NCBI GenBank assembly: GCA_025463515.1
Contig: JAODAQ010000067.1
Location: forward strand, 1-64,000
Reading direction: 5' to 3'
Source of the DNA: Rhodoglobus sp.
Lineage (GTDB): Bacteria > Actinomycetota > Actinomycetes > Actinomycetales > Microbacteriaceae
Length of the DNA: 64,000 nucleotides
The notes below the pieces were generated by a model. The model did no database searches. It saw nothing but the letters and a program-made list of their open reading frames with translations, and was not told the origin of the DNA. Below are positions 4,983 through 32,717 of the stretch, one piece after another. Position 1 is the first letter of the stretch. Each line of letters starts with the position of its first letter. Position numbers and translations under genes: made by a program.

Positions 4983-5013
4983 GCATACACGGTATTGGTC
5001 TACCGGGTATGCA
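4982..5013. promoter_or_regulatory. Dyad at the padR start, probable operator
   Basis: TGCATAC (4982-4988) pairs with GTATGCA (5007-5013), and GGTA (4991-4994) pairs with TACC (5001-5004), all about the same centre. The start codon of padR begins at its left edge and the polymerase stop codon abuts its right edge, so the whole intergenic space is this dyad. Autorepression is inferred. Confidence 0.6.
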
Positions 5014-6657: not shown

Positions 6658-6682
6658 GAGTCCATCCTGCCGCGCTGAACCG

Positions 6683-9544: not shown

Positions 9545-9547
9545 GAA

Positions 9548-9605
9548 TAGCATGCTAGTCACAAAAGTATTCACTGCACCGCATAGCGGGTACTAGATGC
9601 TAGTA
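9548..9605. promoter_or_regulatory. Divergent promoter region with two related palindromes
   Basis: Between the dehydrogenase pair lie TAGCATGCTA (9548-9557) and TACTAGATGCTAGTA (9591-9605, 6-bp arms). Both contain ATGCTAG. Each abuts one of the two start codons. TAGTAT at 9601-9606 lies 8 bases before ATG 9614, the spacing expected for a -10 box of a leaderless transcript. The regulator is not identified. Confidence 0.5.
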
Positions 9606-9613
9606 TTCGATAT

Positions 9614-11056: not shown

Positions 11057-11062
11057 GCCCGG

Positions 11063-11106
11063 CCTCGCGGACCTACCCGGCCCGCCTCGCGGACCTACCC
11101 GGCCCG
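11063..11106. repeat. 22-bp tandem repeat, two copies
   Basis: The unit CCTCGCGGACCTACCCGGCC plus CG is repeated head to tail at 11063-11084 and 11085-11106, directly after the aldehyde dehydrogenase stop. It opens a 560-bp stretch without any credible gene. Confidence 0.8.
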
Positions 11107-11615: not shown

Positions 11616-13148
11616 TTACTCGTCGATGTCCGACATGACCGGGGTCTCCTTGCCGCGGGCCTTGCGCATCTTGACGATGACGGCCCAGAGGGAGCTGCCG
11701 ATGACCGCGAGGATCACGATGATCCAGATGCCGACCGCGATCGGGGTGGAGAGGAAGTACATCGGGTTTCCGCCGGAGATGAACATGCCCTCGCGGAAGT
11801 ACTTCTCGATCAGCGGGCCGAGCACGAGGCCGACCAGGAGCGCCGCCAAGTTGAACTTCAGCTTGCGGAACACGTAGCCGAGGGCGCCGAACACCATGAT
11901 CATGTAGATGTCGATCATGTTGTTGTGGATGCTGAAGCTGCCCACTGCCGCCACGACCACGATGATCGGGATGAGGATGTTGCGCGGCGTCTTCAGGAAC
12001 TGCACCCAGATGCCCACCATCGGAAGGTTCAGGATCAGCAGCATCACGTTGGCGATGTACATGGCCGCGATGATCGACCAGAAGATCTCCGGGTGCTGGG
12101 TGATGAGCAGCGGGCCGGGCTGCACGCCCTGCACCACCATCGCCGAGAGCATGAGCGCGAGGGTGGCCGAGAACGGCAGGCCGAGCACGAGCACGGGCGC
12201 GAGACTGGCGAGCGCGGCGGAGTTGTTCGCGGCCTCCGGGCCGGCGATGCCCTCGACGGCGCCGGTGCCGATCTCCTTGCGGTACTTCGAGACCGACTTC
12301 TCCACCTTGTAGGACGTGAAAGTCGAGAGTGATGCCGACGGGCCGGGGAGCAGGCCGAAGATGAAGCCGATGAACGAGCCGCGGATCCAGGGGGCAACGG
12401 CGCGCTTCCACTCGGTGCGCGTCGGCAGCAGCTCCTTGAGGCGGATGCGGGACGGCATCTTCACGCCGGTCTTGTCCTCGAGCATGAGCATGAGCTCCGA
12501 GATGCCGAAGAGTCCGACTGCGACGGAGGCGAGCGCGATGCCCAGCGTGAGGTCGAGGTTGCCGAAGGTGAACCGGCTGAAGCCGGTCGCGCCCTCGAGG
12601 CCGATCGTGGAGACGGCGACGCCGACGACCATCGGCACCAGGCCGTCACTGAGCGAGCCGCCCGAGATGCGGGCGAGGGCGATCAGGCCGCCGGCCGTCA
12701 GCGCGAGGAACTCCGGCGAGCCGAACGACAGCGTGACGTCGGCGAGCACTTTCGAGAAGCTCATGAGCAGGACCAGCGCGATCGTGCCGGCGATGAACGA
12801 GCCCACGGCCATGATGGTCAGCGCTGCGCCGCCACGGCCCTTCTGGGTCATCTTGTAGCCGTCGAACGTCGCAACGATCGCCGACCCCTCGCCCGGGATG
12901 TTCAGCAGCACCGAGGTTGTCGAGCCGCCGTACTGGGCGCCGAGGTAGATGCCCGCGATCATGATGAGCCCGACCGCGGGCGAGTAGCTGAAGGTGAGCG
13001 GCAGGATGATCGCCGCGCCGGCGACCGGGCCGATGCCGGGGAGCACCCCGACAAGGGTGCCGAGGACCGCTCCGATGAGTGCCGCGAGCAGGAGCTCCGG
13101 CGTGAGCGCGAGCTGGAATCCGTAGAGGATCCCCTGGATGACGTCCAT
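11616..13148 (-). CDS. tctA: Tripartite tricarboxylate transporter, large permease TctA
   Basis: A 510-residue polytopic membrane protein of the TctA family. The ALIGAVLGTLVGVLPGIGPVAGAAI segment is the hallmark TctA signature, followed by about eleven hydrophobic segments and a short charged cytoplasmic tail. With TctB and the periplasmic-type binding protein TctC it imports carboxylates in a cation-coupled manner. It is the last gene of tctCBA, 24 bp after tctB, and is followed by a strong terminator. The substrate is presumably that of the neighbouring catabolic genes. Confidence 0.93.
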   Translation of the reverse strand: MDVIQGILYGFQLALTPELLLAALIGAVLGTLVGVLPGIGPVAGAAIILPLTFSYSPAVGLIMIAGIYLGAQYGGSTTSVLLNIPGEGSAIVATFDGYKMTQKGRGGAALTIMAVGSFIAGTIALVLLMSFSKVLADVTLSFGSPEFLALTAGGLIALARISGGSLSDGLVPMVVGVAVSTIGLEGATGFSRFTFGNLDLTLGIALASVAVGLFGISELMLMLEDKTGVKMPSRIRLKELLPTRTEWKRAVAPWIRGSFIGFIFGLLPGPSASLSTFTSYKVEKSVSKYRKEIGTGAVEGIAGPEAANNSAALASLAPVLVLGLPFSATLALMLSAMVVQGVQPGPLLITQHPEIFWSIIAAMYIANVMLLILNLPMVGIWVQFLKTPRNILIPIIVVVAAVGSFSIHNNMIDIYMIMVFGALGYVFRKLKFNLAALLVGLVLGPLIEKYFREGMFISGGNPMYFLSTPIAVGIWIIVILAVIGSSLWAVIVKMRKARGKETPVMSDIDE

Positions 13149-13172
13149 GAGCTACTTTCTCGCCTGTCTGGG

Positions 13173-13727
13173 TCAGGAGCCGAAGATGATGCCCTGCGGC
13201 AGGCTCACCAGCAGGAGGTTGATGAAGATGAACGCGATACCGGCCGAGAGCACGACGCCCCACAGCACTGCGCGCCACCATGGCGTCTTGCCGAGGAACT
13301 TGATCATCGCGACCGAGTAGACGGCTCCGGTGATGTACTGGCCGAGAATCGGGAGCAGGAGGACGAACGCGAGGGTTCCGAAGAAGAAGATGATCACGAG
13401 ACGGAGCTTCTCGCCCTGCGGCAGTTCGAGGTCGTCCTCCGTCTTCTGGGTGGAGAACACGGACTCGAGGATCAGGATCAGCATGATCGCGATCGCGACG
13501 AACCCGACGATGCGGGGGAAGAACCCCGCGCCGGGGCGGTCGAGCGCCCCGGGCGGGATCTGGAATGCCTGGTAGGTGTAGCCGACGGCGACCAGGAGCA
13601 GCAGCACCCCGAGGATGAGCCGGCCCTGCCGAACCCTCCCCATCTGCGACCAGGAGATCAGCCGGAGCTTCCCGGGCTGCTCTTCTGGTGTGCTGGGCGT
13701 ACTGCTCATGGCGCCGTCGACTGACAT
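13173..13727 (-). CDS. tctB: Tripartite tricarboxylate transporter, small permease TctB
   Basis: A 184-residue membrane protein with four hydrophobic segments and a long basic/polar N-terminal extension, matching the TctB family by length, topology and position between tctC and tctA. The PPGALDRPGAGFFPRIVG segment after the first helix is the conserved TctB loop. A second Met (MSSTPSTPEEQ) could also serve as start. Confidence 0.9.
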   Translation of the reverse strand: MSVDGAMSSTPSTPEEQPGKLRLISWSQMGRVRQGRLILGVLLLLVAVGYTYQAFQIPPGALDRPGAGFFPRIVGFVAIAIMLILILESVFSTQKTEDDLELPQGEKLRLVIIFFFGTLAFVLLLPILGQYITGAVYSVAMIKFLGKTPWWRAVLWGVVLSAGIAFIFINLLLVSLPQGIIFGS

Positions 13728-13769
13728 GTCTCTACCTATCTAGCGGGTTGCTAACGCGGGTTGTGCGGA

Positions 13770-14789
13770 CTAACCGAGGTCGAGGCCTGCGGCCTGCAGC
13801 AGCTTGACGCCCTCTTCGGCATCCTTGCTCGCCTGGCGCAGTTCCGCATCGGCTTCTTCCGGCGTGGAGGCGTGGGCCGAGTAGCCGTTGGTGTCCATCC
13901 ACTCCTTGAACTCGTCGCTGGCGATGACCTTCTGGGTCGCGTCGGCGATGATGGCGAGGATGTCGTCCGGGATGCCCTTGGGGCCGTACGCGTAGTACGT
14001 GGTTTCCGCGAGGCTCGTGATCGGGAAGCCCTCGTCTGCGAACGGGGTGGACTCGGCGGGCGTGTACGGCAGCGTGCCCGAGTGGCCCAGCGAGATGAAG
14101 TCGCCGGACTCCAGGAAGCCGAGCTGGCCCGAGAGGGTTCCGTTCATGCCGTCGATCTCGCCGGCGAGCAGAGCCTTCGCAGCCTCACCCGCTCCGCCCT
14201 CGAAGGGCACGAGACGAACTCTGAAGCCCGCGACATCCATGAGCGATGCCATACCCATGGCGTTCGCACCTGAGACGCTCGAGACACCGACGGTGAGCTC
14301 GCCGGGCTTGGCCTTGGCCGCCGCGATGAAGTCGTCGAGGGTGGCCCAGCCGGAGTCAGCACGGACCATGAGGCCGTTCTGCTGGATGAGCATGCCGCCG
14401 ATCGTGGTCCAGTCGTCCGGGCCCGAGAAGCTGAGCGCGTCGGAGCTGAGCAGCGGGGTCACGGAGAGCTGCGACGACGGCGCGATGGCGATCGTGTAGC
14501 CGTCCGCCTTGCGGCCGAGCACCTCGGTGGTGGCGACCGCGCCGGAGCCGCCGGGGCGGTTCTGGACTGTCACACCCACGCCGAGCTCCTTGGCCAGCAG
14601 CAGCGCGTACTCGCGGGCGATCGGGTCGGCCGAGCCGCCCGTGTCGTAGCCCAGGTAGAGCTGGATGTCCTTCGTCGGGTAGTCCGTGGTGGGAGCCGCC
14701 GGAGCCGTGGTGCAGCCGGCAAGCACGATAGCCGCCGCGGCGACTGCCGCGGCTGCAACGAGCTTGATGGAGAATTTCTTGGCGTTCAT
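13770..14789 (-). CDS. tctC: Tripartite tricarboxylate transporter substrate-binding lipoprotein TctC
   Basis: A 339-residue Bug/TctC-type extracytoplasmic solute receptor. The signal peptide ends in the lipobox LAGC (Cys26), so it is membrane-anchored. The conserved binding-protein elements NRPGGSGAVATTEV and GGMLIQQNGLMV are present. The frame extends upstream to 14900, but the true start is ATG 14789, preceded by GAGGACAGG. It is the first gene of tctCBA; a regulatory motif shared with two other transcription units lies 96-134 bp upstream. Bug receptors usually bind di- or aromatic carboxylates. Confidence 0.93.
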   Translation of the reverse strand: MNAKKFSIKLVAAAAVAAAAIVLAGCTTAPAAPTTDYPTKDIQLYLGYDTGGSADPIAREYALLLAKELGVGVTVQNRPGGSGAVATTEVLGRKADGYTIAIAPSSQLSVTPLLSSDALSFSGPDDWTTIGGMLIQQNGLMVRADSGWATLDDFIAAAKAKPGELTVGVSSVSGANAMGMASLMDVAGFRVRLVPFEGGAGEAAKALLAGEIDGMNGTLSGQLGFLESGDFISLGHSGTLPYTPAESTPFADEGFPITSLAETTYYAYGPKGIPDDILAIIADATQKVIASDEFKEWMDTNGYSAHASTPEEADAELRQASKDAEEGVKLLQAAGLDLG

Positions 14790-14884
14790 CCTGTCCTCGT
14801 CGTTGAGTTTGGGTGCCGTGTCAGTTGGTGACCGCTGTGGGCGTCCACGGCACTGTGGATGGGCAGGAAGATTCCTGACCGTTA

Positions 14885-14923
14885 GAGATACGAACTTCAT
14901 ATCTCATGCATCGAATCTTATGG
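14885..14923. promoter_or_regulatory. Regulatory site upstream of tctCBA (shared motif, copy A)
   Basis: It contains an imperfect palindrome, GAGATACG (14885-14892), AACTT, CATATCTC (14898-14905), with one mismatch. It overlaps a 28-bp motif, TTCATATCTC...ATCTTATGG (14896-14923), that recurs upstream of the leuC-like operon (23275-23302) and the MmgE/PrpD gene (27345-27372). Confidence 0.65.
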
Positions 14924-14958
14924 CTGGGCACCTTCCGCGTCAACAGAGAAACGCCGGG

Positions 14959-15897
14959 TCATGGCAGTTCCCTCAGCGGCGTGCCCTCGAGGAAGGCGCG
15001 GATGTCCTCCACGGCGTCCGGATACGACACGCGGAAGCTGCCGTCGGTCACGTAGCCCATGTGCGGAGAGAGGAGCGTCCGCGGCGAGGTGCGCAGCCAG
15101 TGGTCGGCGGGCAGGGGCTCCTCGTCATAGACGTCGAGCCCGGCGCCCGCGATCCAGCCCTCGTCGAGGGCCCGCCGCAGCGCCGCCTGGTCGACCAGGC
15201 CCGCGCGCGCCGTGTTCACGAGGTAGGCGTCCGGCGGCATCAGCCTGAGCTCGGCGGCGCCGACGATCTCGCGCGTGCTCTCCCCCAGCACCAGGTGCAG
15301 GGAGATGAACCGGGATGCCGCGAACAGCTCGTCCTTCGCTGCCAGCCGTGCGCCGCCCTCTGCGGCGCGCTCGGCGGTGAGGTGCGGGCTCCAGGCGATC
15401 ACGTCCATGCCGAGAGCCGTCCCGACGGCCGCGACCTTCGCTCCGAGGCGCCCGAGCCCGACGAGGCCGAGCGTCTCGCCCGCGAGATCGGCGCCGACAG
15501 TCTGCTGCCAGCCTCCGGCCCGGACGCGGGCATCCTCACCCGCCACGTTCTTGGCGAGCCCGAGGATGAGAGCCCAAGCGAGCTCGGCGGCAGTGCCCGA
15601 CTTCATGCCCGTGCCCGACACGGTGATACCGAGCTCCCGGGCCGCCCCGACGTCGATGGAGGCGTTGCGCATGCCGGTGCTGACGAGCAGCCGCAGCTCG
15701 GGCAGTTGCTCGAGCACGGAGCGCGGGAAGGGGGTTCGCTCGCGCATCGCCACGACGACCGGGGCTCCCGCGAGCCGCTGGAGCAGGGCATCCCCGACCA
15801 GGTGCTCGTGCACGAAGTCGACGTCGAGGCCGGCCCAGTCCGCGCGCGACTCCGCCGCCGACTGGTAGTCGTCGAGCACGACGACCCGCGTGGTCAC
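14959..15897 (-). CDS. D-2-hydroxyacid dehydrogenase, NAD-dependent (first of three)
   Basis: A 312-residue protein. The nucleotide-binding motif is GLVGLGRLGAKVA. The catalytic set Arg (NTARAGLVD), Glu (DVYDEEPLP) and His (LSPHMGYVT) is intact. It reduces 2-oxoacids or oxidises D-2-hydroxyacids. The start is GTG 15897, which overlaps the stop of the upstream hydrolase (GTGA). It is the last gene of a nine-gene operon starting at leuC-like 23233. The substrate is unknown; the operon also has a second member of this family. Confidence 0.88.
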   Translation of the reverse strand: MTTRVVVLDDYQSAAESRADWAGLDVDFVHEHLVGDALLQRLAGAPVVVAMRERTPFPRSVLEQLPELRLLVSTGMRNASIDVGAARELGITVSGTGMKSGTAAELAWALILGLAKNVAGEDARVRAGGWQQTVGADLAGETLGLVGLGRLGAKVAAVGTALGMDVIAWSPHLTAERAAEGGARLAAKDELFAASRFISLHLVLGESTREIVGAAELRLMPPDAYLVNTARAGLVDQAALRRALDEGWIAGAGLDVYDEEPLPADHWLRTSPRTLLSPHMGYVTDGSFRVSYPDAVEDIRAFLEGTPLRELP

Positions 15898-16754
15898 CCG
15901 CCCGCCCCGATCGAGCGCAGGAAGGCTATCGACTCCGCGTTGAACCGCTCCGGGTACTCGAGCTGCGGGAAGTGCCCGCACTCCTCGAACACCGTCAGGC
16001 GCGAATCGGCGATGGCGGCATGGATGCCCTCCGCCTCCGGCACCGCGCCCATCGGGTTGAACCGGCCCCAGAAGATCTGGGTGGGAGCCGTGATGCGCCC
16101 CATCCGCTCGGGGGTGAGCAGGTTGCGCTGGCGGACCTCCATGTCCTGCATGCACAGCAGGTAGTGGAGCGCGGCTTGGAAGTCGGGCTCGTGGTAGATC
16201 CGGTACCGGACGTCGACCAGCTCTTCGCTCGCGCGCGACGGGTCGAAGAAGAGCTTCGCGAGCCGGTCGCGGGTGTAGGCCGGATCCGGGTCGTTCGCCG
16301 CGAGCTCCGTGGTGCTGCGGATGCGCGCCATCACCTCGGGCACCGCGAGGGTGCCGCCCGAGGAGACGAGCTGGAGGCTCGCGACCCTGTCCTGGTGCTC
16401 GCTCGCGAACCAGGCCGCCACCCAGCCGCCGAGAGACTCCCCGACGAGGTGCACGCGCTCGGCACCGACCGCGTCGAGGTAGTCGGAGACGTGCGCCACG
16501 TAGTCGGGGACCTCGAGGTTGCGGGTCGCCTTGTCCGAGTATCCGTGCCCCCGCATGTCGATCGCATGGGCCGCGAAGCCCGCGCGCGCGAACTCGCGCA
16601 CGTTCGGCGCGAACACCTCGAGGTGGCTGCTCGTGCCGTGCAGGAAGAGCACGAGCTCCCCCTCGCCGACCTGCAGCGCACGCGTGCGGACGCCGCCCGC
16701 CGCCACGAAGTCGAGGCGGAACGGGACGTTCGAGAGGTCGGTCCAGATGCTCAC
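15894..16754 (-). CDS. Alpha/beta hydrolase related to meta-cleavage product hydrolases
   Basis: A 286-residue alpha/beta hydrolase. The oxyanion region is LFLHGTSSH, the nucleophile Ser107 is in VGESLGG and the catalytic His261 is in ECGHFPQ. At the usual catalytic acid position (WGRxD) the sequence reads WGRFNPMG, so Asn233 replaces Asp. Related enzymes cleave carbon-carbon bonds of vinylogous 1,5-diketones or hydrolyse esters. The start is GTG 16754, overlapping the cupin stop. It sits in the catabolic operon between the cupin and a hydroxyacid dehydrogenase. Confidence 0.85.
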   Translation of the reverse strand: MSIWTDLSNVPFRLDFVAAGGVRTRALQVGEGELVLFLHGTSSHLEVFAPNVREFARAGFAAHAIDMRGHGYSDKATRNLEVPDYVAHVSDYLDAVGAERVHLVGESLGGWVAAWFASEHQDRVASLQLVSSGGTLAVPEVMARIRSTTELAANDPDPAYTRDRLAKLFFDPSRASEELVDVRYRIYHEPDFQAALHYLLCMQDMEVRQRNLLTPERMGRITAPTQIFWGRFNPMGAVPEAEGIHAAIADSRLTVFEECGHFPQLEYPERFNAESIAFLRSIGAGG

Positions 16755-17140
16755 TCGAGGCGCCTCGCGAAGGGCTTCGACGGGTCGGGCACCGGCGAGC
16801 AGATGTTGAGGTGGATGGTGTCCTCGTCGGTGGCGTTGAAGTTCTGGTGCGCCACGCCCGCGGGGAAGACCACGAGGCTGCCGGGCGCGGCGTCGAACCG
16901 GTTGCCGTCGACCTCGATGGTCATGGTGCCGGCGAGGATGTAGAACACCTGGTCGACCTCGTGCACGTGCAGGCCCTCCGGCGAGCCGCCGCCGGCCGGG
17001 GTGCGGATGTACGACACCGTCACGTGCGTCGCGCCGCTGTCGTGCGAGAGGAGCTTCTGGGAGAGCCGCTCGTCAGGGCCGAGGGCGGCGAACTTCGCGA
17101 AGTCGACGGTGCGGAGGTACTCGAATGCCGCGTCGGTCAT
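16751..17140 (-). CDS. Cupin-domain protein
   Basis: A 129-residue single cupin. Motif 1 has the metal ligands in GLHVHEVDQVFYILAG (two His, Glu position replaced by Gln in VDQVF) and motif 2 is PAGVAHQNFN. The fold can be an isomerase, dioxygenase or decarboxylase; no finer assignment is possible. The frame extends upstream, but ATG 17140 begins the fold and overlaps the stop of the carboxymuconolactone decarboxylase-like gene (ATGA). Confidence 0.83.
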   Translation of the reverse strand: MTDAAFEYLRTVDFAKFAALGPDERLSQKLLSHDSGATHVTVSYIRTPAGGGSPEGLHVHEVDQVFYILAGTMTIEVDGNRFDAAPGSLVVFPAGVAHQNFNATDEDTIHLNICSPVPDPSKPFARRLE

Positions 17141-17763
17141 GGTGTTTCCTTTCGGTGGTGCAGGTCGTCCCAGGGGGCAGTCTCGCCCACGGGAAGGGGA
17201 ACGTCGAAGGTGTTGAGGAGGAATGACGAGAGGCAGTAGTAGCCGGTGAGCGCAACGGCGTCGATGAGCTTGCGCTCCCCCAGCGCCGCGAGAGCTGCGG
17301 CGTAGGCGTGATCGTCGACGGCACCGGTCGCGAGCAGCTGCCTGACGACGGTGTGCAGCGCCTGGTCCCGCGGGCTCTCGAGCACCGGCCGGTCGCCGCG
17401 CGCGATCGCCGCGACGACCTCGGCCGGAATGCCCTCGCGCGCGGCGTAGATCTCGTGCCGCAGCCAGGCGTAGCGCGCCCGCCAGTGGCCGGCGACCGTC
17501 ACGATCACGAGCTCGGTCTCGTACAGGTCGAGGCTCGAGTCGAACCGCAGCCGGGCGCCGAGCTCCGAGACAGCGAGGCCGATGCCGGGCGAGCGCAGCA
17601 GCACGTCGAAGGGGCCGGTGAGCTGGCCGCCCTCGCGCACCGCCGTCGCCGCGCGCGGGCCTGCCGCGATCGCGTCCCACATCGCGCGCTGCTCGGGGTC
17701 GAGCCCTTCGTCGCGCATCGGTGTGAGTCTGCGGCTCGCGGCGCTGCCCAGTTGCCCGGCCAT
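17137..17763 (-). CDS. Carboxymuconolactone decarboxylase-like protein
   Basis: A 208-residue all-helical protein of the CMD/AhpD superfamily, recognised by the ELVIVTVAGHWRARYAWLRHEIYA helix pair. In AhpD this position carries a CxxC peroxidatic pair; none is present, so a lyase or decarboxylase-like role is more likely than peroxide reduction. The homologous part begins at ATG 17763, two bases after the SDR stop. It is a central gene of the catabolic operon. Confidence 0.82.
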   Translation of the reverse strand: MAGQLGSAASRRLTPMRDEGLDPEQRAMWDAIAAGPRAATAVREGGQLTGPFDVLLRSPGIGLAVSELGARLRFDSSLDLYETELVIVTVAGHWRARYAWLRHEIYAAREGIPAEVVAAIARGDRPVLESPRDQALHTVVRQLLATGAVDDHAYAAALAALGERKLIDAVALTGYYCLSSFLLNTFDVPLPVGETAPWDDLHHRKETP

Positions 17764-17765
17764 GG

Positions 17766-18641
17766 CTACTTCGCGGCGACGCGCTCGCGCGCCGCCTTCG
17801 CTGCCGCTGCCTCTTCCTTGACCTCGGCCTCGGAGGGCGCGCGGCCGATCTGCACGCTCTGGCCGCCGTCGACGGGGAGCGTGACACCGGTCACGAACGA
17901 CGCCTCGTCCGACGCGAGCCAGAGGGCGGCGTTGGCGATGTCCCAGGCCGTGCCCATCTTCTTGCGCAGCGGAACCTCCTTGTCGCGCATGGCCACGACC
18001 TCCTCGTACGTGAGGTCGAACTTGCGCATGCGGTTCTCGACGGCTGTCGGAGTATTGAGCAGCCCGGGCAGGATGACGTTCGCGCGCACGCCGTACTCGG
18101 CGTTGCGGATCGCCACGTGCTGGGTCAGCGCGACGACGGCTGCCTTGGACGTCTTGTAGCCGACGTACGGGTAGTTGTTGAAGGCCGCGGCCGACGAGAT
18201 GTTGATGATCGAGCCGGAGCCCTGCTCGCGCATGATCGGGATGATGTGCTTGCAGGTGAGGACCATCGAGCGCAGGTTGATGTTGATGACGCGGTCGAAC
18301 GCCTCCGTCGTGATCTCGGTGATCACGGCGTCCCCCGCCGCGATGCTCACGCCGACGTTGTTGTGCAGGATGTCGATCTTGCCCCACATCTTGTACACGG
18401 CGTCCACTGCCGCGATGATCGTGTCCTCCTCGGTCACGTCCGCGACGAACGGCTCGGCGATGCCGCCGGCCTCGCGGATCCCGTTGACCGTGTCCTGCGC
18501 GGCCTCCAGGTTGTTGTCGACGCAGAACACCTTCGCGCCCTCGCGGGCGAACGTGAGGGCGGTGGCCTTGCCGTTGCCGACGGTCCTGCCCGCCTGCTGG
18601 CCGGCTCCGAAGATGATTGCGACTTTGCCTTCGAGTCTCAT
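17766..18641 (-). CDS. Short-chain dehydrogenase/reductase
   Basis: A 291-residue classical SDR. The cofactor motif is GAGQQAGRTVGNG, Asp42 in the FCVDNN loop suggests NAD preference, and NNVG, Ser of NISSAAAF and Y-x3-K (in GYKTSKAA) form the catalytic set. The C-terminus has an Ala/Glu-rich helical extension of about 35 residues not needed for the fold. It belongs to the operon, between the TPP enzyme and the CMD-like gene, and presumably oxidises a hydroxy intermediate. Confidence 0.87.
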   Translation of the reverse strand: MRLEGKVAIIFGAGQQAGRTVGNGKATALTFAREGAKVFCVDNNLEAAQDTVNGIREAGGIAEPFVADVTEEDTIIAAVDAVYKMWGKIDILHNNVGVSIAAGDAVITEITTEAFDRVININLRSMVLTCKHIIPIMREQGSGSIINISSAAAFNNYPYVGYKTSKAAVVALTQHVAIRNAEYGVRANVILPGLLNTPTAVENRMRKFDLTYEEVVAMRDKEVPLRKKMGTAWDIANAALWLASDEASFVTGVTLPVDGGQSVQIGRAPSEAEVKEEAAAAKAARERVAAK

Positions 18642-18677
18642 TGCTGTTGCTCCTTCTGGTGGTATTGGTGGTCTGGG

Positions 18678-20441: not shown

Positions 20442-20471
20442 GCTGTGCTCCTGTGTGGCTCGTGGGTTGGT

Positions 20472-21407
20472 CTAGAGGTGTTCGATCATGAAGTCCGCGG
20501 CGGCGGCGGCGATGCCCGCCATCACGGTGTCGCTGTACCCGCCGTTGTGCGGCGAGAGCACCACGTGGGGCGCGATGAGAAGGGGGGACCCGGTCGGGGG
20601 CTCGTCGGCGAAGACGTCGAGGGCGGCGGAGGTGACCTTGCCGGAGTGCAGTGCCTCGGCGAGGGCCGCTTCGTCGACGACTTCACCGCGCGCGGTGTTG
20701 ACGATGACGACGCCGTCGCGCATCCGCGCGATCTGCTCCCGGCCGATGAGGTGGCGGGTGTCGTCGGTGAGCGGCACGTGCACGCTGATGAAGTCCGAGG
20801 CCGCGAGCAGCTCGTCGAGCCCGACCGTGCGGATGCCCAGCGCCGCGTCGGAGGCGGGGTCCGGATGCCGGCGGTACACGATCACGTCCATGTCGAAGCC
20901 GCGCGCCTTCGGGACCATGGCGCCCCCGATCGCGCCGAAGCCGAGGAGCCCGAGCGTGCGGCCGCCGAGGTGGCGGCCGGTGAACCGGGTCCACTCCCCC
21001 TTGCGCATCGAGGCGTCGGCCTCGGGGATGCGCCGGGCTGCCGCGAGCAGAAGCGCGAACGCGTACTCCGCCACCGCGTCGGCATTGAGGCCGGCGAGGT
21101 TGGACGCGACGATGCCGCGCTTGCGGGCCTCCTCCACGTCGACGTTGTCGAGGCCGGTGCCGACCCGCAGCACGTACTTGAGCCGGGGCGCCGCCTCGAA
21201 GAGCGCGCGGTCGACGGGCTGCAGTCCCACGACGAGTCCGTCGATCCCGGCGGCTACCGCATGCCACGCGGCGAGGCCGTCGGGGCCGGCCATGAGCGCG
21301 TCATAGCCCGCGAGGTCGATCGCGACGTCGATGCCGGCGTCGGCCAGGCGCGCCCGTGCGGACGCGTCGTTGCCGACAATGCGTGTCAGCAGTGCGACGG
21401 TGGTCAT
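20472..21407 (-). CDS. D-2-hydroxyacid dehydrogenase, NAD-dependent (second of three)
   Basis: A 311-residue protein of the phosphoglycerate dehydrogenase-like branch. The cofactor loop is GLLGFGAIGGAM, followed by the basic residues YRRHPDP. The catalytic Arg is in NTARGEVVD, Glu in DVFADEPP and His in LSPHNGG. It lies between the TPP enzyme (30 bp) and the small aconitase-like subunit (39 bp) in the operon. Arginines after the second beta strand may allow NADP use. Confidence 0.88.
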   Translation of the reverse strand: MTTVALLTRIVGNDASARARLADAGIDVAIDLAGYDALMAGPDGLAAWHAVAAGIDGLVVGLQPVDRALFEAAPRLKYVLRVGTGLDNVDVEEARKRGIVASNLAGLNADAVAEYAFALLLAAARRIPEADASMRKGEWTRFTGRHLGGRTLGLLGFGAIGGAMVPKARGFDMDVIVYRRHPDPASDAALGIRTVGLDELLAASDFISVHVPLTDDTRHLIGREQIARMRDGVVIVNTARGEVVDEAALAEALHSGKVTSAALDVFADEPPTGSPLLIAPHVVLSPHNGGYSDTVMAGIAAAAADFMIEHL

Positions 21408-21446
21408 GCTCTCTCCCTTGAGATCATCGGATTCATCCCGGGCGGC

Positions 21447-21941
21447 CTACAGGTACCCGTCGCGGCGGAGCACGGCATGGGTGCCGCCCGCCGCGATCGT
21501 GTCGAGCAGCATGGACGGCATCGCCTCGCCCCGGGCCGAGACGCCGGTGGTGCGGTTGTCGAAGGTGCCCAGCTCGATGTCGACCGAGACGGTGTCGCCC
21601 TCGGTCACGATCGACAGCACGCCGGGCAGCTCGAGGACGGGCAGGGCGTAGCTCACGCAGTTGCGGAAGAAGATCTCCCCCACCGACTCCGAGACGACCG
21701 CGGCGATCCCGAGGCGCGTGAGCATCGTGGGCGCCGGCCTGCTGGAGCCGGTACCGAAGGCGCGGCCCGTGATCAGGATGTCGCCGGGCTGAACGAGCAT
21801 CGCCCAGCCGGGCCGGATCGTGGCGAGCACGAGCGACTCCTGCTCGCGGGGCGCCATGTCGTAGCCGCGGTGCGGCATCATCGCGTCGGTGTTGATGTAG
21901 TCGTTCGGGATGACCCAGGCCTTGCCGGTCAGCGTGCTCAT
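21447..21941 (-). CDS. Aconitase-family small subunit (LeuD-like)
   Basis: A 164-residue swivel domain of a heterodimeric hydro-lyase. GRAFGTGSSRPAP is the conserved GxxxGxGSSR substrate loop and FRNCVSYALPVLELP the second signature. ATG 21941 overlaps the stop of the large subunit (ATGA), so subunits are made together. In leucine synthesis this would be isopropylmalate isomerase, but the catabolic setting suggests another 2- or 3-hydroxy di/tricarboxylate, as for dimethylmalate or maleate hydratases of the same family. Confidence 0.88.
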   Translation of the reverse strand: MSTLTGKAWVIPNDYINTDAMMPHRGYDMAPREQESLVLATIRPGWAMLVQPGDILITGRAFGTGSSRPAPTMLTRLGIAAVVSESVGEIFFRNCVSYALPVLELPGVLSIVTEGDTVSVDIELGTFDNRTTGVSARGEAMPSMLLDTIAAGGTHAVLRRDGYL

Positions 21942-23233
21942 GCCGACTCCCGTGCCGTATCGCGAAGCGCGAGGAGCGCCGGCATCGGGTCGGCGATGTA
22001 GCCGGCGAGCGCGGAGGCCGCGACCGCGGCGGACGACCCCATGTAGATCTCCGCGTCGGGGCTGCCCATGCGGCCCTTGAAGTTGCGGGTGCTCGAGGTG
22101 ATACACACCTCGCCCGCCGCGAGGACGCCCATGTGGCCGCCGGCGCACGCACCGCAGGTCGAGCTCGTGACCAGCGCGCCGGCCGCGGCGAGGGTCTCGA
22201 TGTATCCGAGGCGGATCGCGTCGAGGTAGATCTGCTGCGAGCCCGGCGTGACGATGAAGCGCACGCCTTCAGCGACCCGCTTGCCGCGGACGATGTCGGC
22301 GGCAACCCGCAGGTCGGAGAGCTTGCCGTTCGCGCACGATCCGATGAAGGCCTGGTCGATCGCGATCCGCTCCTCGCCGATCGAGCTCGCCGACCGCACG
22401 TTCCGGTTCATGGCGTTCGGCATCGCGATGCCGGAGGAGATGTCATCGAGGTTCACCACGTAGATGGCGGCGTACTCGGCATCCTCGTCCGCCTCGACCG
22501 GGATGTAGGGCGCGTCGGTGACGGAGGCGATGTGCTCGCGCACCAGGCGGTCCGCGGGCATCATCACGAAGTTGGCGTTGAGCTCGGTGCACATCGTCGA
22601 GAGCGTCGCGCGGTCGTCGAGCGGCATCGACTCCAGGCCGGGGCCCTCGAACTCGATGTCGTGGCCCTCCTGGCTGCCGTAGAGCTGGGCGATGTGCAGG
22701 AATACGTCCTTGCCGTAGACCCCGAACGGCAGGGACCCCTCGAGCCGGAACTTTATCGTCGGGGAGACCTTGTACCAGGTCTTGCCGGTGCAGGCGAGCT
22801 GGATGATGTCGGCCATGCCGAGCCCGCGCGCCGCGCAGTTGAGCACGCCCGCCGCGCTCGTGTGCGAGTCATTGGACGCGACGAGCTGCCCGGGCAGCGC
22901 GAGGCACTCCTCGAAGATGAGCTGGTGCTCGATGCCGCCCTTGCCGACCTCCGCCATGCGGCCGAAGCCGAGCCGCTTGGCGTGCTCTCGAGCGCGCTTG
23001 TGGGCGGTCGCGTACTTGATGTTCGGCGCCGGAACCGCGTGGTCCATGAGCACCGCGATGCGCTCCGGGTGCGCGACCTTCTTGATGTCGGTCGGCAGGC
23101 GCTCCGGCTCGGGGTTGAACACCGAGTCGGCGAGCACGATCAGGTCGACGTCCGTGACTACGATCTGGCCGGGATGCACCTCGGCCAGGCCGCTGCGTGC
23201 CGCGAGCACTTTGTGCACCATGGTCATCCCCAT
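21938..23233 (-). CDS. Aconitase-family large subunit (LeuC-like)
   Basis: A 431-residue [4Fe-4S] hydro-lyase. Cluster ligands lie in GSCANGKLSD and STCGACAGGH. The catalytic His region is SNDSHTSAAGVLNCAARGLG. It catalyses reversible dehydration/hydration of a hydroxyacid together with the LeuD-like subunit. The frame can begin at TTG 23266; I chose ATG 23233, where MGMTMVHKVL aligns with the family start. It is the first gene of the nine-gene operon, with shared motif copy B 42-69 bp upstream. Confidence 0.88.
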   Translation of the reverse strand: MGMTMVHKVLAARSGLAEVHPGQIVVTDVDLIVLADSVFNPEPERLPTDIKKVAHPERIAVLMDHAVPAPNIKYATAHKRAREHAKRLGFGRMAEVGKGGIEHQLIFEECLALPGQLVASNDSHTSAAGVLNCAARGLGMADIIQLACTGKTWYKVSPTIKFRLEGSLPFGVYGKDVFLHIAQLYGSQEGHDIEFEGPGLESMPLDDRATLSTMCTELNANFVMMPADRLVREHIASVTDAPYIPVEADEDAEYAAIYVVNLDDISSGIAMPNAMNRNVRSASSIGEERIAIDQAFIGSCANGKLSDLRVAADIVRGKRVAEGVRFIVTPGSQQIYLDAIRLGYIETLAAAGALVTSSTCGACAGGHMGVLAAGEVCITSSTRNFKGRMGSPDAEIYMGSSAAVAASALAGYIADPMPALLALRDTARESA

Positions 23234-23274
23234 GGTGTCACCGGGTTCCCCGAGAACGAAGGGCAACTTTGCAC

Positions 23275-23302
23275 TTCATATCTCATACTTCGCATCCTAT
23301 TG
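23275..23302 (-). promoter_or_regulatory. Shared 28-bp motif upstream of leuC-like operon (copy B)
   Basis: TTCATATCTCATACTTCG followed by CATCCTATTG on the plus strand. It matches copy A at 22 of 28 positions. It lies in the 92-bp gap between the FAH gene stop and the leuC-like start. Confidence 0.65.
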
Positions 23303-23325
23303 CTTGTGGGGGGTGCGCGGCAAGG

Positions 23326-24171
23326 TCAGCCGGCCACGACCGGGTTGGTGAGCGCGACGAATCCGGGAATGCGGCACTCCGCGACATCCCCGGCCCTGAT
23401 CACGACGGCGCCCGGCGTGCCGGTCGAGATGATGTCGCCCGGATACAGCGGCATCACCTTGCTGTGAAAACTCACCAGGTGCCGCGGCGAGTAGGTCATG
23501 TTGTTCACCGTGTTCTTGCGGTGCAGCTCGCCGTTCACCATCGTGGAGACCTCGAGGTCGCCGATATCGCCACTCGGAACGGCCTCGTCCATCGTGACCA
23601 CCTGCGGCCCGAACGAGAAGAAGCCGGGGAAGTTCTTGGAGCGGGTGAGGAACCGGGGGTTGCGCTGGAGGATGTCCTCGGCGGTCTGGTCGAGGATCGT
23701 GACGAGGCCGAAGACGTAGTCGAGGGCGTCCGCCTCCTCGACGTTGCGGCAGTACTTCCCGATGATCAGCCCGACCTCGGCCTCGGCGGTCACACGCTCG
23801 CTCTGCACGGGCAGCGGGATCGGGTCACCGGGACCGATGATCGTGTGGTCGGCCTTGATGAAGGAGGCGGGCTCCTCCGGCAGCGGCGCGTCGAGGTCGT
23901 TGGCGTGATCGCGGTAGTTGAGGCCGATCCCCCAGATCATGCGCGGGTGCAGGTACGGTGCGCCGTAGCGCACTCCGGACTCGCGGACGAAGGCCGAGGA
24001 ATCCGCCCGCTCTGCCGCGACTGCGACCTCGTCGAGCCTGCCGCTCGCGATGAAGTCCATGAGGTCGCCGTTCGACCCCGGCAGCAGGGTCGCGAGGGGC
24101 GCGAGCCCTCGAGCGTGCACGAGGACTGCCGTGCGCGTGCCGTCCGGCTCGATGGTGGTTGCAAAGCGCAT
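23326..24171 (-). CDS. Fumarylacetoacetate hydrolase family protein
   Basis: A 281-residue FAH-fold enzyme. The C-terminal domain has the substrate entry GIGLNYRDHAND, the metal-binding acidic residues in TAEAEVGLIIGK and the GTPGAVV loop near the end. Family members hydrolyse or decarboxylate 2,4-dioxo or 2-oxo-enoic acids with Mg2+ or Mn2+. The SDR 23 bp upstream forms a two-gene unit with it. It fits late ring-fission-type or oxoacid steps of the local pathway. Confidence 0.88.
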   Translation of the reverse strand: MRFATTIEPDGTRTAVLVHARGLAPLATLLPGSNGDLMDFIASGRLDEVAVAAERADSSAFVRESGVRYGAPYLHPRMIWGIGLNYRDHANDLDAPLPEEPASFIKADHTIIGPGDPIPLPVQSERVTAEAEVGLIIGKYCRNVEEADALDYVFGLVTILDQTAEDILQRNPRFLTRSKNFPGFFSFGPQVVTMDEAVPSGDIGDLEVSTMVNGELHRKNTVNNMTYSPRHLVSFHSKVMPLYPGDIISTGTPGAVVIRAGDVAECRIPGFVALTNPVVAG

Positions 24172-24194
24172 GTGATCTCTCCTGTTGGCGTGAA

Positions 24195-24971
24195 TCAGAA
24201 ACCGCGGACCAGGCCGCCGTCGACGCGCAGCTGCTCGCCCGTGATGTAGGCGGCGCTGTCGCTCGCGAGGAACGCGACGACCGCGCCGAACTCGTCGGGC
24301 TCGCCGTACCGCCCGGCCGGGATCGTCGCACGCGAGTCGCTCGCGACCTGGTCGACCGAGACCCCGCGCGCCGCGGCGGCGGCCCCGTCCAGGCTCGCCA
24401 CCCGGTCGGTCGCGATGCGGCCCGGGATGACCATGTTCACCGTGACCCCGTCGGCTGCGACCTCGTGCGCGAGGGTCTTGAGGTACGCGGCGAGGGCTGC
24501 ACGGCCGATGTTGGACGAGGCCAGCCCGGGGATCGGCTGCTGGACGCCGGTCGATCCCACTGCGAGGATGCGCCCCCAGCGCTGCTCGATCATGCGCGGC
24601 AGCACCTCGGCCACGAGTCGAACGCCGGGCAGCATGAGCTGGGCTACGGCCTCAGCTGCGGCATCCGCGGAGAGTTGGGCAGCAGTGCCCGGCTTGGGGC
24701 CGCCGCCGTTGATCAGCACCACATCCGCGCCGCCGAAGCGGGCCGCCGCCGCGACCGCCTCCCTGATCGTCCGCGGGTCGAGCAGGTCGCCTGCCACGCC
24801 GATTGCCGAGGGAAGAGTCGCGGACAGCTCTTCGAGGAGTTCTGCGCGCCGGCCCACCAGCACGAGGTTCAGGCCGGCCGCCCCCAGGGCGCGCGCGCTG
24901 GCGGCACCGAGCCCGGCGGTGGCGCCGCACACGATCGCCGTGCGCACGATGGCCCGGGCAACGTCGACCAT
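24195..24971 (-). CDS. SDR-family protein lacking the usual Tyr-x3-Lys
   Basis: A 258-residue Rossmann protein with the cofactor motif GATAGLGAASA and GRRAE, then LINGGGPKPG in place of NNAG. In the catalytic helix, where classical SDRs have Y-x3-K, it reads SSNIGRAALAAY: Asn and Arg replace Tyr and Lys. A recognisable SDR subgroup shares this pattern. Its chemistry may therefore differ from hydride transfer with Tyr as acid. It is the first gene of the SDR-FAH unit, divergent from the GntR regulator. Confidence 0.85.
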   Translation of the reverse strand: MVDVARAIVRTAIVCGATAGLGAASARALGAAGLNLVLVGRRAELLEELSATLPSAIGVAGDLLDPRTIREAVAAAARFGGADVVLINGGGPKPGTAAQLSADAAAEAVAQLMLPGVRLVAEVLPRMIEQRWGRILAVGSTGVQQPIPGLASSNIGRAALAAYLKTLAHEVAADGVTVNMVIPGRIATDRVASLDGAAAAARGVSVDQVASDSRATIPAGRYGEPDEFGAVVAFLASDSAAYITGEQLRVDGGLVRGF

Positions 24972-25009
24972 CGGATCTCCTCGTCATCGAGAGGTCTCGC
25001 ATATCGTTG

Positions 25010-25028
25010 ATATACGGAATTCGTATAT
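25010..25028. promoter_or_regulatory. Palindrome between the SDR and gntR genes
   Basis: ATATACG (25010-25016), GAATT, CGTATAT (25022-25028) is a perfect inverted repeat with 5-bp spacing. Arm sequence and spacing match the palindrome upstream of tctC (ATACG-N5-CATAT). A further half-site, CGTATATC, lies at 25113-25120 before gntR. It is a probable operator for the divergent pair. Confidence 0.65.
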
Positions 25029-25177
25029 TGAATCTAGTCGACCGGGCTACCCGAGGTCAACTGTGGCACGCCCGACAATTGCGGCACGGCACTAGGTCGC
25101 AGTCAGATAGGGCGTATATCGTATGCACAGAAGCGTTCCCGACTACTCGTCGGCCAAGCAGACCGGAAGTGTGAAAA

Positions 25178-25879
25178 GTGAGCATTCTGAAGCCCATCGC
25201 CAGCAGGCCGGCGAGCCTCACCGAGATGGTGCAGGACGCCATCCGCGACGCGATCGTCTCGCGACGACTCTCCCCCGGCGACCGCATCACTGAGGCTGCG
25301 CTCGCCAAACAGCTCGAAGTCAGCAAGACCCCGGTGCGCGAGGCGCTCCTCAAGCTCGAGTACATCGGCCTCATCGAGTCCGACGGCGGCCGCGGTGGCC
25401 GCATCATCACGCCCTCCCTTGAGTCGATCAGGGCCGCGTACCAGGTGCGCATCGGCCTCGAGACCCAGGGCGCACGAATCCTCGCCGAGAGCGACGGCCG
25501 CCGCACCGGCGACGCGCGCGCGCACGCCGAAGCCTGCCTGCGCGCGGCCGAGGTCGACGACCGCTCCGGATTCCGTGAGTACGACCGCAAGTTCCACATG
25601 TCCCTCGCTGAGGCCACCGGCAACCCGCTGCTCGAGCGCCTCATCCACGACGCGTTCGACCTCACCTGGACGCTTCGCGACCGCGAGGTCCCCGTGACGG
25701 ACGACTCGCTGAACTGCGCCCACCAGCACATCGACGTCATGGTCGCCATCGAGGCCAGCCAGCCCGATCAGGCCGACAACGCCATGCGCCGCCACATCGA
25801 GAACGTGCAGGACCTCGTGCTCACTACCTTCTCGGAACAACTGGCCAACGCGCGGAACTTCACACCCGCCATCGGCTGA
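25178..25879 (+). CDS. GntR-family regulator, FadR/FCD subgroup
   Basis: A 233-residue regulator. The N-terminal winged helix spans about 10-75 (AIRDAIVSRRLSPGDRITEAALAKQL, then SKTPVREALLKLE). The C-terminal all-helical FCD domain has metal-ligand positions in EYDRKFHMSLAEATGN and in the two later His residues. Start is GTG 25178 with GGAAG 8 bases ahead. FCD regulators bind small carboxylates. It is the only regulator in the 16-kb catabolic region and the natural candidate for the shared palindromes. A perfect terminator follows. Confidence 0.9.
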   Translation: MSILKPIASRPASLTEMVQDAIRDAIVSRRLSPGDRITEAALAKQLEVSKTPVREALLKLEYIGLIESDGGRGGRIITPSLESIRAAYQVRIGLETQGARILAESDGRRTGDARAHAEACLRAAEVDDRSGFREYDRKFHMSLAEATGNPLLERLIHDAFDLTWTLRDREVPVTDDSLNCAHQHIDVMVAIEASQPDQADNAMRRHIENVQDLVLTTFSEQLANARNFTPAIG

Positions 25880-25893
25880 TCCAGAACATCCGC

Positions 25894-25928
25894 AGAAGGG
25901 CCCCGGTCGCGATGACCGGGGCCCTTCT
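25894..25928. terminator. Bidirectional terminator between gntR and MmgE/PrpD
   Basis: A perfect 15-bp stem with arms 25894-25908 and 25914-25928 (AGAAGGGCCCCGGTC and complement) and a 5-base loop. It lies between converging genes and runs into T-rich sequence on both sides. Confidence 0.85.
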
Positions 25929-25970
25929 TGCTGGGGTGCCCGGTCACTGCACCGGCCACTCGCCCCTGCG

Positions 25971-27314
25971 CTAACTCAGCAGATCCAGGCCCTCGATGAT
26001 CGACGGCTGCTCGGCGAGCGACCACCAGAACGCCAGGCCGGCGTCGACCTTGCGCTCGTCGAGAGTGACGAGCTTGCGGTACTTGTCGCTGGTCTCCTCG
26101 GGCGACATGCGGTTGAGCGCGTGCCCCCGGGCCTTGTCGGTGTAGATGTCGATGGTCTCGCCCGACTTCGTCTTTGCCTGGATCTTCATGGCGATCACCC
26201 GCGGGAAGAGCTCGTTGAGCTCGTCGTCCTCCCCCGCTGTCACCAGGTTCATGACCGGCCGGATGTCTGCTGCGAGGTACTTGTCCTCGTCGAATGACCC
26301 GATCGTGATCTCACCGTCGACAAGGGCTCTCGAGAAGATGTACGGGAGGCTGTGGTCAGCGGTCTCGCGGGTGGTCGGATCCCACTTGTCCTTCTCGCTG
26401 GCAGTCTCGTGCCAGGCCGACCAGTAGGTCATGAGATGCACCGACTCGAGGTCGGCGATGTCGACCTTCTCGCGCAGCTCCCGAGCGCCCCAGACCGCGA
26501 CCTGGGTGTTGAACTCGACCGGCCAGTACTTGAGGTGCGCGTTCGTCAAGAACAGGTAGTCGCCGCCCTCGCTCGGGAACGGGCGGAACGTGAACGGCCC
26601 GGTGATGATCTCCCAGATGCCGTGCCGGCCCTCGAACGGCTGCGGGGGGCCGGTGAGCCCCTTCTCCGCGAGCGCGGTGAGGAACACGGTCTCGCGCACG
26701 GCCTCCGCAGTCGCGGCGCCCTTCCATGCGGAGATGGTGCCGGCGCGGGTGGCGCGCAGCGAGATGCAGGTGACGGTTGCGAGGGAGACGGCGTGGCCGA
26801 TGCGCTCGGCATCCATGCCCAGCATCGTGCCCAGGCCTGCTGCGAGTGCGATGCCCACCGTGACGCCCTGGTCGTAGCCCTTCTTGCGCACGTAGGCCGA
26901 CTCGCCGAACCGCGCGAAGACCTCGTAGGCGGAGACGAAGGCGGTGATGAGCTGCTTGCCCGTGGTGCCTCGTCCCGCCGCGACGGCGAGGAGGCCGCCG
27001 AGGCAGTCGCTCGGGTGGCCGCCGGGCACCATCGTGTCGCTGTAGTCGAAGTACCGGATCGCAGCGGCGTTCACGAAGCCCGCGATGTCGGCGGCGACCG
27101 TGGCGGTGGAGCCGATCATCCGGCCGGTGAACTCGCCCGACACCTCGTGAGCGAGCGTGCGCGCGATCGCCGCGGCGTCGCAGTCGCGGGCGCCGTAGCC
27201 GCAGGCGAGCGAGTCCACGATGTGCTGGATCGCGATCTGTCGGACATCCTCAGGGATGTCCTCGTAGGTGAGGTTGGCGGCGAACTCGCTGATCTGCCTG
27301 GTCGTTGCATCCAC
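25971..27314 (-). CDS. MmgE/PrpD family protein
   Basis: A 447-residue protein of the 2-methylcitrate dehydratase/aconitate decarboxylase fold. The signatures HIVDSLACGYGA, SDTMVPGGHPSDCLGGLLA and LRATRAGTISAWKGAATAEA lie in the helical domain, and the smaller lid domain follows. Known members dehydrate 2-methylcitrate or decarboxylate cis-aconitate. Start is GTG 27314. It is transcribed alone from a promoter carrying the shared motif copy C 31-58 bp upstream, which ties it to the tct and leuC-like operons. Confidence 0.88.
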   Translation of the reverse strand: MDATTRQISEFAANLTYEDIPEDVRQIAIQHIVDSLACGYGARDCDAAAIARTLAHEVSGEFTGRMIGSTATVAADIAGFVNAAAIRYFDYSDTMVPGGHPSDCLGGLLAVAAGRGTTGKQLITAFVSAYEVFARFGESAYVRKKGYDQGVTVGIALAAGLGTMLGMDAERIGHAVSLATVTCISLRATRAGTISAWKGAATAEAVRETVFLTALAEKGLTGPPQPFEGRHGIWEIITGPFTFRPFPSEGGDYLFLTNAHLKYWPVEFNTQVAVWGARELREKVDIADLESVHLMTYWSAWHETASEKDKWDPTTRETADHSLPYIFSRALVDGEITIGSFDEDKYLAADIRPVMNLVTAGEDDELNELFPRVIAMKIQAKTKSGETIDIYTDKARGHALNRMSPEETSDKYRKLVTLDERKVDAGLAFWWSLAEQPSIIEGLDLLS

Positions 27315-32337: not shown

Positions 32338-32366
32338 GTAGGCCGCCCGCGGCCGTATCGAAACCT
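32332..32366 (-). repeat. Interspersed intergenic repeat, copy 3
   Basis: GGTTGAGTAGGCCGCC then CGCGGCCGTATCGAAACCT on the plus strand. It is nearly identical to copy 4 at 32718, and the two flank the small membrane-protein gene in direct orientation. Confidence 0.8.
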
Positions 32367-32614: not shown

Positions 32615-32717
32615 GAGGGACTTCCTCGCATCGTCGTGTCTGGCCGGGTACGGTGCGACTCGTCCGGGGCGGTGCTGGTGCACCTGGGGCCGGGAGCAAT
32701 TCTCTCACGACCGTCCG

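Follow-up and report, generated by a model that had tools for sequence, protein, structure and literature searches.

A predicted carboxylate-catabolic island at a locus of variable content in Rhodoglobus sp.

The first 64,000 nucleotides of Rhodoglobus sp. contig JAODAQ010000067.1 (here called the window) carry a block of 14 colinear minus-strand genes, running from 24971 down to 11616 by translation and Pfam/NCBIfam scans, next to a divergent GntR/FCD transcriptional regulator. With a probability of roughly 0.5, the block and its surroundings form an acquired catabolic island, probably GntR/FCD-repressed, in which a tripartite tricarboxylate transporter (TTT; TctCBA) would import a carboxylate for cytoplasmic degradation through a core of LeuCD, a D-2-hydroxyacid dehydrogenase (HADH), a thiamine diphosphate (ThDP) enzyme, and the short-chain dehydrogenase/reductase (SDR) SDR1. 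The favored substrate class would be an unsaturated or hydroxylated, branched or alicyclic di- or tricarboxylate. The island is a new combination of familiar enzyme kinds.

Gene block and regulator

The 14 genes of the block are listed first, in their order of transcription from SDR2 to TctA, followed by the features around them.

24195-24971, minus: SDR2, SDR family (SSNIGR), without YxxxK
23326-24171, minus: FAH (fumarylacetoacetate hydrolase)-family enzyme, metal-site motifs kept
21938-23233, minus: LeuC-type large subunit, Cys300, Cys360, and Cys363 conserved in 26 of 26 aligned rows
21447-21941, minus: LeuD-type small subunit with GSSRP, placed by translation and alignment
20472-21407, minus: HADH2, D-2-hydroxyacid dehydrogenase, Arg/Glu/His motifs
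18678-20441, minus: ThDP enzyme of the GQGxW clade, Glu (RNE) and GDG...N motifs kept
17766-18641, minus: SDR1, classical SDR (YxxxK), nearest compared relatives CMD-linked SDRs
17137-17763, minus: CMD (carboxymuconolactone decarboxylase)-like protein without CxxC, probable AhpD/CMD fold
16751-17140, minus: small cupin, 129 aa, His motifs, Pfam match in a longer open reading frame (ORF)
15894-16754, minus: ABH, MhpC-like alpha/beta hydrolase, Asn at the presumed catalytic-acid position
14959-15897, minus: HADH1, D-2-hydroxyacid dehydrogenase, Arg/Glu/His motifs
13770-14789, minus: TctC, TTT solute-binding protein; the start at 14789 fits a lipoprotein signal, longest ORF from 14900
13173-13727, minus: TctB, TTT small permease, Pfam PF07331
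11616-13148, minus: TctA, TTT large permease, Pfam PF01970, 472 bits
25010-25028, no strand: inverted repeat ATATACG-N5-CGTATAT, candidate operator, just downstream of a promoter-like site at 25060-25031
25178-25879, plus: GntR/FCD transcriptional regulator, divergent from the operon
25971-27314, minus: MmgE/PrpD-family protein, a separate unit beyond the regulator
9614-11056, plus: aldehyde dehydrogenase (ALDH), nearest models 2,5-dioxovalerate and alpha-ketoglutaric semialdehyde dehydrogenase, both below cut-off
6683-9481, minus: YdiJ-like FAD/Fe-S dehydrogenase, NCBIfam YdiJ 417 bits against a cut-off of 1350, longest ORF from 9574

Genes overlap by 4 nt at four junctions (LeuC/LeuD, CMD/cupin, cupin/ABH, and ABH/HADH1), and the remaining gaps from SDR2 as far as HADH1 are 2 to 92 bp, with gene starts set by a simple script plus inspection; HADH1 and TctC are 169 bp apart, taking 14789 as the TctC start. 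Pfam identifies TctA, TctB, TctC, the two D-2-hydroxyacid dehydrogenases, two SDRs, the aconitase-family large subunit, a three-domain ThDP enzyme, FAH, the alpha/beta hydrolase, the cupin, and MmgE/PrpD, in agreement with the families named in a first-pass annotation of this DNA. That annotation described a nine-gene operon with overlapping genes; the overlaps stand, and the count rises to 14. It omitted the divergent regulator, and it placed within the gene set the MmgE/PrpD gene, which sits beyond the regulator and outside the operon. Among the matches listed, no NCBIfam equivalog cut-off is reached by the HADHs, FAH, ABH, the SDRs, or the ThDP enzyme, so that family membership is sure and the specific functions are not. 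Catalytic residues are present in the form of the LeuC Fe-S cysteines, the HADH Arg/Glu/His set, the FAH metal motifs, and the ThDP Glu.

The inverted repeat between regulator and operon has perfect 7-bp arms, the left of which reappears inverted at 25113-25120, and the promoter-like site at 25060-25031 lies on the minus strand in the regulator-SDR2 gap. This combination of divergent regulator, promoter-like site, and candidate operator matches the arrangement of an operon controlled by a regulator of its own, and we infer that the GntR/FCD protein probably represses the island. A scan of 15 kb returned two promoter-like sites (shuffle mean, 0.8), the second of them upstream of tctC at 14943-14915, and no terminator-like sites (shuffle mean, 3.5), which is weak evidence either way.

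Chromosomal locus and rarity of the gene set

The island lies between two anchor genes, a DNA polymerase A family gene (5014-6657) upstream and a DUF1684 gene (29389-30213) downstream, that were located in 25 stretches from the same genus; a 26th relative, G002, is not among them. Both anchors are on the stretch in 23 of the 25, separated by 11 bp to 10.7 kb (at most 129 bp in 6 relatives and 4.7 to 10.7 kb in 17, measured between alignment ends rather than gene ends), and one anchor is off the stretch in the other two (G014 and G018). The gap in the Rhodoglobus sp. window is 22.7 kb (6658-29388). None of the 25 stretches has a match to the operon proteins at this locus (E 1e-30, 60% of length), and eight have an aldehyde dehydrogenase there that is 35 to 36% identical to that of the island. 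Because anchor gaps and gene content differ among these relatives, the locus is, judged by sequence comparison, variable in content across the genus, and the block from ∼6.66 to 27.3 kb is cargo of Rhodoglobus sp.; the limits first given to the island were thus too narrow, as the variable block takes in YdiJ and the aldehyde dehydrogenase. An acyltransferase gene (27400-29355), with relatives at the same locus in G014 (81%) and G007 (59%), is perhaps also part of the cargo.

Contamination or misbinning of the contig was considered and rejected, since the segment at 3000-6657 matches genus genome G014 at 81% DNA identity over its whole length. The same segment is 80 to 82% identical to G019 and G012 over 2.2 to 2.3 kb, and the stretch from 3000 to 11100 has some match in all 26 other genus genomes searched, only a short one in G002. 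Island and flanking genes are alike in GC content at third codon positions and in codon distance, with the regulator as the sole outlier; composition therefore gives no sign of recent transfer, and the evidence is the variable locus itself.

The gene set is rare. The ThDP protein is matched only in its own genome, whether among 60 relatives (E 1e-60), 396 phylum genomes (E 1e-70), or 398 family genomes (E 1e-60), the latter two totals including that genome; within each phylum or family genome, only a handful of candidates were scored (3 for ThDP, 4 for LeuC, and 7 for CMD), and weak hits can escape. LeuC is matched in 18 of the 396 phylum genomes (E 1e-90; best outside its own genome, 49%) and the CMD-like protein in 15 (E 1e-12), the own genome included in each count. 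A scan of genome contigs with the ThDP protein as single query, which finds close relatives only, gave 32 loci, three of them (L014 to L016) at 41 to 44% identity and the others at 25 to 31%, with no operon-level relative among them. The best plasmid matches are 43% identical for the ThDP protein, among 72,556 plasmid records, and 53% for LeuC; plasmid searches with LeuC, ThDP, CMD, and ABH gave partial resemblances only, in the neighborhoods opened, and the CMD-like protein has no relative among the viral contigs. No publication describing the gene combination was found in the open-licence full-text literature. The statement in the first-pass annotation that no described pathway has this combination agrees with these limited searches of genomes, plasmids, and open-licence literature, in which the best hits scatter over different contexts rather than falling in one described operon.

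Enzymes and their relatives

The LeuC-type subunit scores above two broad subfamily cut-offs, NF001614 (420 versus 385) and TIGR01343, and below the leuC/LEU2 cut-offs (TIGR00170, 156 versus 560; TIGR02083, 366 versus 611); the NF001614 score, the three cysteines, and the adjacent LeuD place it in the aconitase/3-isopropylmalate dehydratase large-subunit family. A biosynthetic LeuCD is judged unlikely, given the failed leuC cut-offs and two stronger aconitase-family matches elsewhere in the genome (592 and 546 bits, versus 233 for the island LeuC), whose sizes suggest that they are the biosynthetic LeuC and aconitase. In a tree of 26 rows, with long branches for the window, Ancylobacter, Peribacillus, Roseomonas, and the genome's own LeuC, and with L065 left out, six form a group with 100/100 support: the window, Rhodococcus, Streptantibioticus, Ancylobacter, and two further actinobacteria. 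GSSRP is common to their small subunits, against GSSRE or GSGRE in four other LeuDs, and the window LeuD diverges from its group at the positions right after this motif. All five other members (L005, L006, L007, L069, and L070, the first of which was scanned only in part) have a lyase of the isocitrate lyase/PEP mutase (ICL/PEPM) family beside or near LeuCD, and three have PrpD. The window operon shares the LeuC group and the GSSRP small subunit with these clusters, but it lacks the ICL-type lyase and the PrpF gene also seen among them, and it adds the HADHs, ThDP enzyme, FAH, SDRs, CMD, and ABH. More distant LeuCD pairs are found with TctC, TcuA, and PrpF, with ICL and TctC, with CoA-transferase, HMG-CoA lyase, and tartrate dehydrogenase, and, in one case, without any such context. 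Two further actinobacterial loci with LeuCD at ∼41% have an SDR gene directly before LeuC, in the order SDR-LeuC-LeuD; HMGL, TetR, CoA-transferase, and ECH genes precede this set in one (L148), and ThDP-domain and POR-type genes lie upstream of it in the other (L147).

The ThDP enzyme has GQGxW in a loop where most acetolactate-synthase-like rows read GPG, and it scores 266 bits against the acetolactate synthase model TIGR00118 (cut-off, 538). Seven GQGxW rows among 25 form one group with 100/99 support, named the GQGxW clade in this analysis, with members from the Chloroflexota, the Actinomycetota, a haloarchaeon, and two plasmids of Rhodobacterales. In four of the seven, the window included, the ThDP gene has an SDR gene as its immediate neighbor; an SDR is several kilobases away, in a divergent set, on the two Rhodobacterales plasmids, one of which (L008) has an additional partial SDR-like match past the lactonase gene, and no SDR was matched at the haloarchaeal locus. 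Both plasmids (L008 and L009) carry a conserved GntR-ThDP-lactonase set opposite a divergent set of a second ThDP gene, an ABC importer, an alcohol dehydrogenase, the SDR, and a quinone oxidoreductase. Looser ThDP relatives (27 to 31%) with an adjoining CMD gene occur at two loci, L025 and L037. Among solved structures BbmA is the closest relative (E 4.3e-61), and no paper on its function was found in the literature searched. The three-domain ThDP architecture is common to BbmA and acetolactate synthase, but BbmA, like the synthase-like rows, has GPG and falls outside the GQGxW clade.

Among 11 compared SDRs, those closest to SDR1 are on plasmids of Cupriavidus (L072, 42%), Rhizobium (L075, 42%), and Variovorax (L076, 38%), beside CMD genes (a small annotated ORF separates the two on the Variovorax plasmid), and all share with SDR1 a GNG insertion in the nucleotide-binding loop. 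These SDR-CMD(-amidohydrolase) clusters differ from the window operon in having no LeuCD, ThDP, or HADH match and in their amidohydrolase, which the operon lacks; the Cupriavidus cluster also contains five TctC-like matches (three of them Pfam-confirmed) and PrpD. In another actinobacterium (G108, locus L143), ALDH (34%), ThDP (25%), and SDR1 (33%) matches lie side by side near a CMD place, where a CMD match is absent at the cut-off of the CMD-locus comparison. The CMD-like protein itself scores 12.6 bits against Pfam CMD (cut-off, 23; E 0.14), behind an unrelated PqqF domain (E 0.027). With a low-confidence structure model (mean pLDDT, 64; 3-row alignment), Foldseek rows 1 to 32 (probability, 0.97 to 1.00; best E 9.4e-3, none at or below 0.001) have CMD/AhpD, peroxidase-related, antioxidant-defence, unknown-function, or debrominase titles, and the entries of the latter four kinds presumably share the AhpD fold. 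By Pfam score the protein falls short of the CMD family, and the top structural matches point to an AhpD/CMD fold as probable.

For ABH, all six relatives opened (of 56 plasmid records) lie in aromatic ring-cleavage, ring-hydroxylation, or meta-pathway clusters. Compared with MhpC-type meta-cleavage-product hydrolases, ABH is 41 to 44% identical to three relatives and retains the nucleophile Ser and the His, but Asn replaces the presumed catalytic-acid Asp found in all six, and no extradiol dioxygenase was found in the operon; the genome (95% complete) has no LigB-family extradiol dioxygenase, other dioxygenase families not having been searched. The nearest PDB chains of FAH are HpaG-type and diketo-rhamnonate-hydrolase chains, SDR2 may have non-classical chemistry with YxxxK missing, and HADH1 has a 57% identical counterpart on S. 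cattleyicolor pSCAT.

The transporter is complete, with TctA, TctB, and TctC all present, and the genome has two further TctC-family genes besides this one. Known TTT substrates include citrate, terephthalate, sulfolactate, galactarate/glucarate, and C6-C9 dicarboxylates, among others (PMC5812351). The TTT-linked catabolic systems for citrate, sulfolactate, terephthalate, galactarate/glucarate, and adipate likewise have a complete TctCBA adjoining catabolic genes, but none of these systems, as described there, has the enzyme set of the window (PMC5812351). At a different locus of same-genus genome G017, a YdiJ gene (63%) adjoins an ALDH gene (65%), with tctBA ∼5 kb on and with an aminotransferase, ECH, GntR regulators, and two DAO-family oxidases in the surroundings; because the two are paired there, YdiJ and ALDH look like, and probably are, a separate module at the island locus.

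Proposed pathway and alternatives

Reaction order, direction, substrate, and the assignment of all genes to one pathway are inferred from gene order and family knowledge. After import by TctCBA, LeuCD would hydrate or isomerize an unsaturated or hydroxylated di- or tricarboxylate to a D-2-hydroxy acid, HADH2 (or HADH1) would oxidize this to a 2-oxo acid, and the ThDP enzyme would decarboxylate or cleave it next to the 2-oxo group; SDR1, with the CMD-like protein, would reduce or oxidize the resulting carbonyl or alcohol, FAH and ABH would perform C-C hydrolysis of a longer or branched intermediate, and ALDH and YdiJ may finish semialdehyde and 2-hydroxyacid products. The consecutive leuC-leuD-HADH2-ThDP-SDR1 genes would thus encode a chemically coherent run of reactions. 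The proposal of a carboxylate-catabolic island in the first-pass annotation is well supported by the TTT importer, the divergent regulator, the tight spacing, the variable locus, and the catabolic contexts of relatives, and its reaction scheme is plausible, with FAH/hydrolase cleavage as the last step being one of several orders.

Several observations weigh against a single pathway. No orthologous operon that would confirm one was found in the searches made, and there is no ICL/PEPM-type lyase among the island genes, two being encoded elsewhere in the genome. An SDR1 relative (at least 38%) stands beside CMD in only 3 of 20 CMD loci (six on plasmids, out of 104 records, and 14 from phylum genomes, in which the CMD places outside the window genome number 17 and those of G174 and G141 were left out); one more, L136, has a 33% SDR near CMD, and the other 16 have no SDR1 match within ∼2 kb of it. 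Three of the seven GQGxW members are without a directly adjacent SDR, and the SDRs next to ThDP in the others, 30 to 34% identical to SDR1, do not form a single orthologous group; the counts behind these module links are small. With Asn in ABH and no YxxxK in SDR2, the assumed chemistry may not hold for these two members; YdiJ and ALDH may be unrelated to the operon; and the promoter-like site before tctC suggests that tctCBA may also be transcribed separately.

The nearest contexts of the modules also differ (LeuCD with ICL/PrpD, ABH with meta-cleavage, SDR1 with CMD plus amidohydrolase, and ThDP with SDR or lactonase), which is compatible with a mosaic, in which LeuCD, HADH2, FAH, and SDR2 would serve one acid and ThDP, SDR1, CMD, cupin, and ABH another, with the TTT shared. 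A promoter of its own for tctC would fit such a mosaic, but the tight spacing across module borders, with 4-nt overlaps from CMD to HADH1, and the single divergent regulator speak against it, and it is a serious rival of clearly lower probability than one pathway. A gentisate-like route that ends in direct hydrolysis has a precedent in HbzF/HbzIJ, and such a tail, with FAH hydrolyzing maleylpyruvate (or a homologue), LeuCD converting maleate to D-malate, and HADH forming oxaloacetate, could account for FAH adjoining leuCD and for the FAH match to PDB maleylpyruvate hydrolase 6jvv (E 6.8e-21, behind HpaG-type and other hits). It is doubtful, however, as none of the 16 PDB matches of the 129-aa cupin is a gentisate dioxygenase, a ring-cleavage enzyme was not found in the operon, the LeuCD group is the ICL/PrpD-linked one, and the ThDP enzyme, SDRs, and CMD are left without a role. 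Those same ICL-family and PrpD neighbors of the LeuCD group recall 2-methylcitrate or 2,3-dimethylmalate metabolism, in which LeuCD and MmgE/PrpD would process an alkylcitrate or alkylmalate and a lyase encoded elsewhere in the genome, which has two PEP-mutase/ICL-family genes outside the island, would split it; the MmgE/PrpD gene adjoins the regulator, and the solved structure closest to its product is that of 2-methylcitrate dehydratase. This is the least probable of the readings, with PrpD a separate unit weakly related to the PrpDs of those clusters (28% over 184 residues; 23%), no lyase in the island, and the ThDP enzyme, HADH, and C-C hydrolases superfluous.

The GQGxW clade, which spans several phyla and to which the searches made attach no function, and the SDR1-CMD pair, which recurs on proteobacterial plasmids, are the most interesting and most testable parts of the island. 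In a speculative and improbable extension, the GQGxW ThDP enzyme would be an uncharacterized C-C hydrolase/lyase that, with the SDR and the CMD-like protein, opens an alicyclic or branched 2-hydroxyketone or dione without oxygen; if so, the island would be an oxygen-independent counterpart of a meta-cleavage pathway, with MhpC- and FAH-type enzymes downstream of the ThDP cut. As a unit open to testing, the operon has a dedicated regulator and occurs in a single species, with no match found at the corresponding site in relatives; identifying its inducer would provide a substrate for several uncharacterized protein groups at once.

Other features of the window include a guanidine-III riboswitch at 32625-32689 on the minus strand (49 bits, above the gathering score), for which the next called gene downstream on the same strand is a small ORF at 32366-32614. 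The region at ∼52800-57300, adjoining a tRNA-Asn gene (57209-57282), is gene poor, has a GC content of 0.59 at 54 to 56 kb (versus ∼0.69) and two large ORFs without a PDB match, and may be another insertion. A minus-strand gene at 33660-37481 codes for a large surface-type protein that matches laminin-G-like and Ig-like domains and, weakly, an LPXTG anchor, and a plus-strand gene at 40916-44185 codes for a 1,089-aa protein with no Pfam family over cut-off and with 57% and 52% identical matches in the stretches of two relatives.

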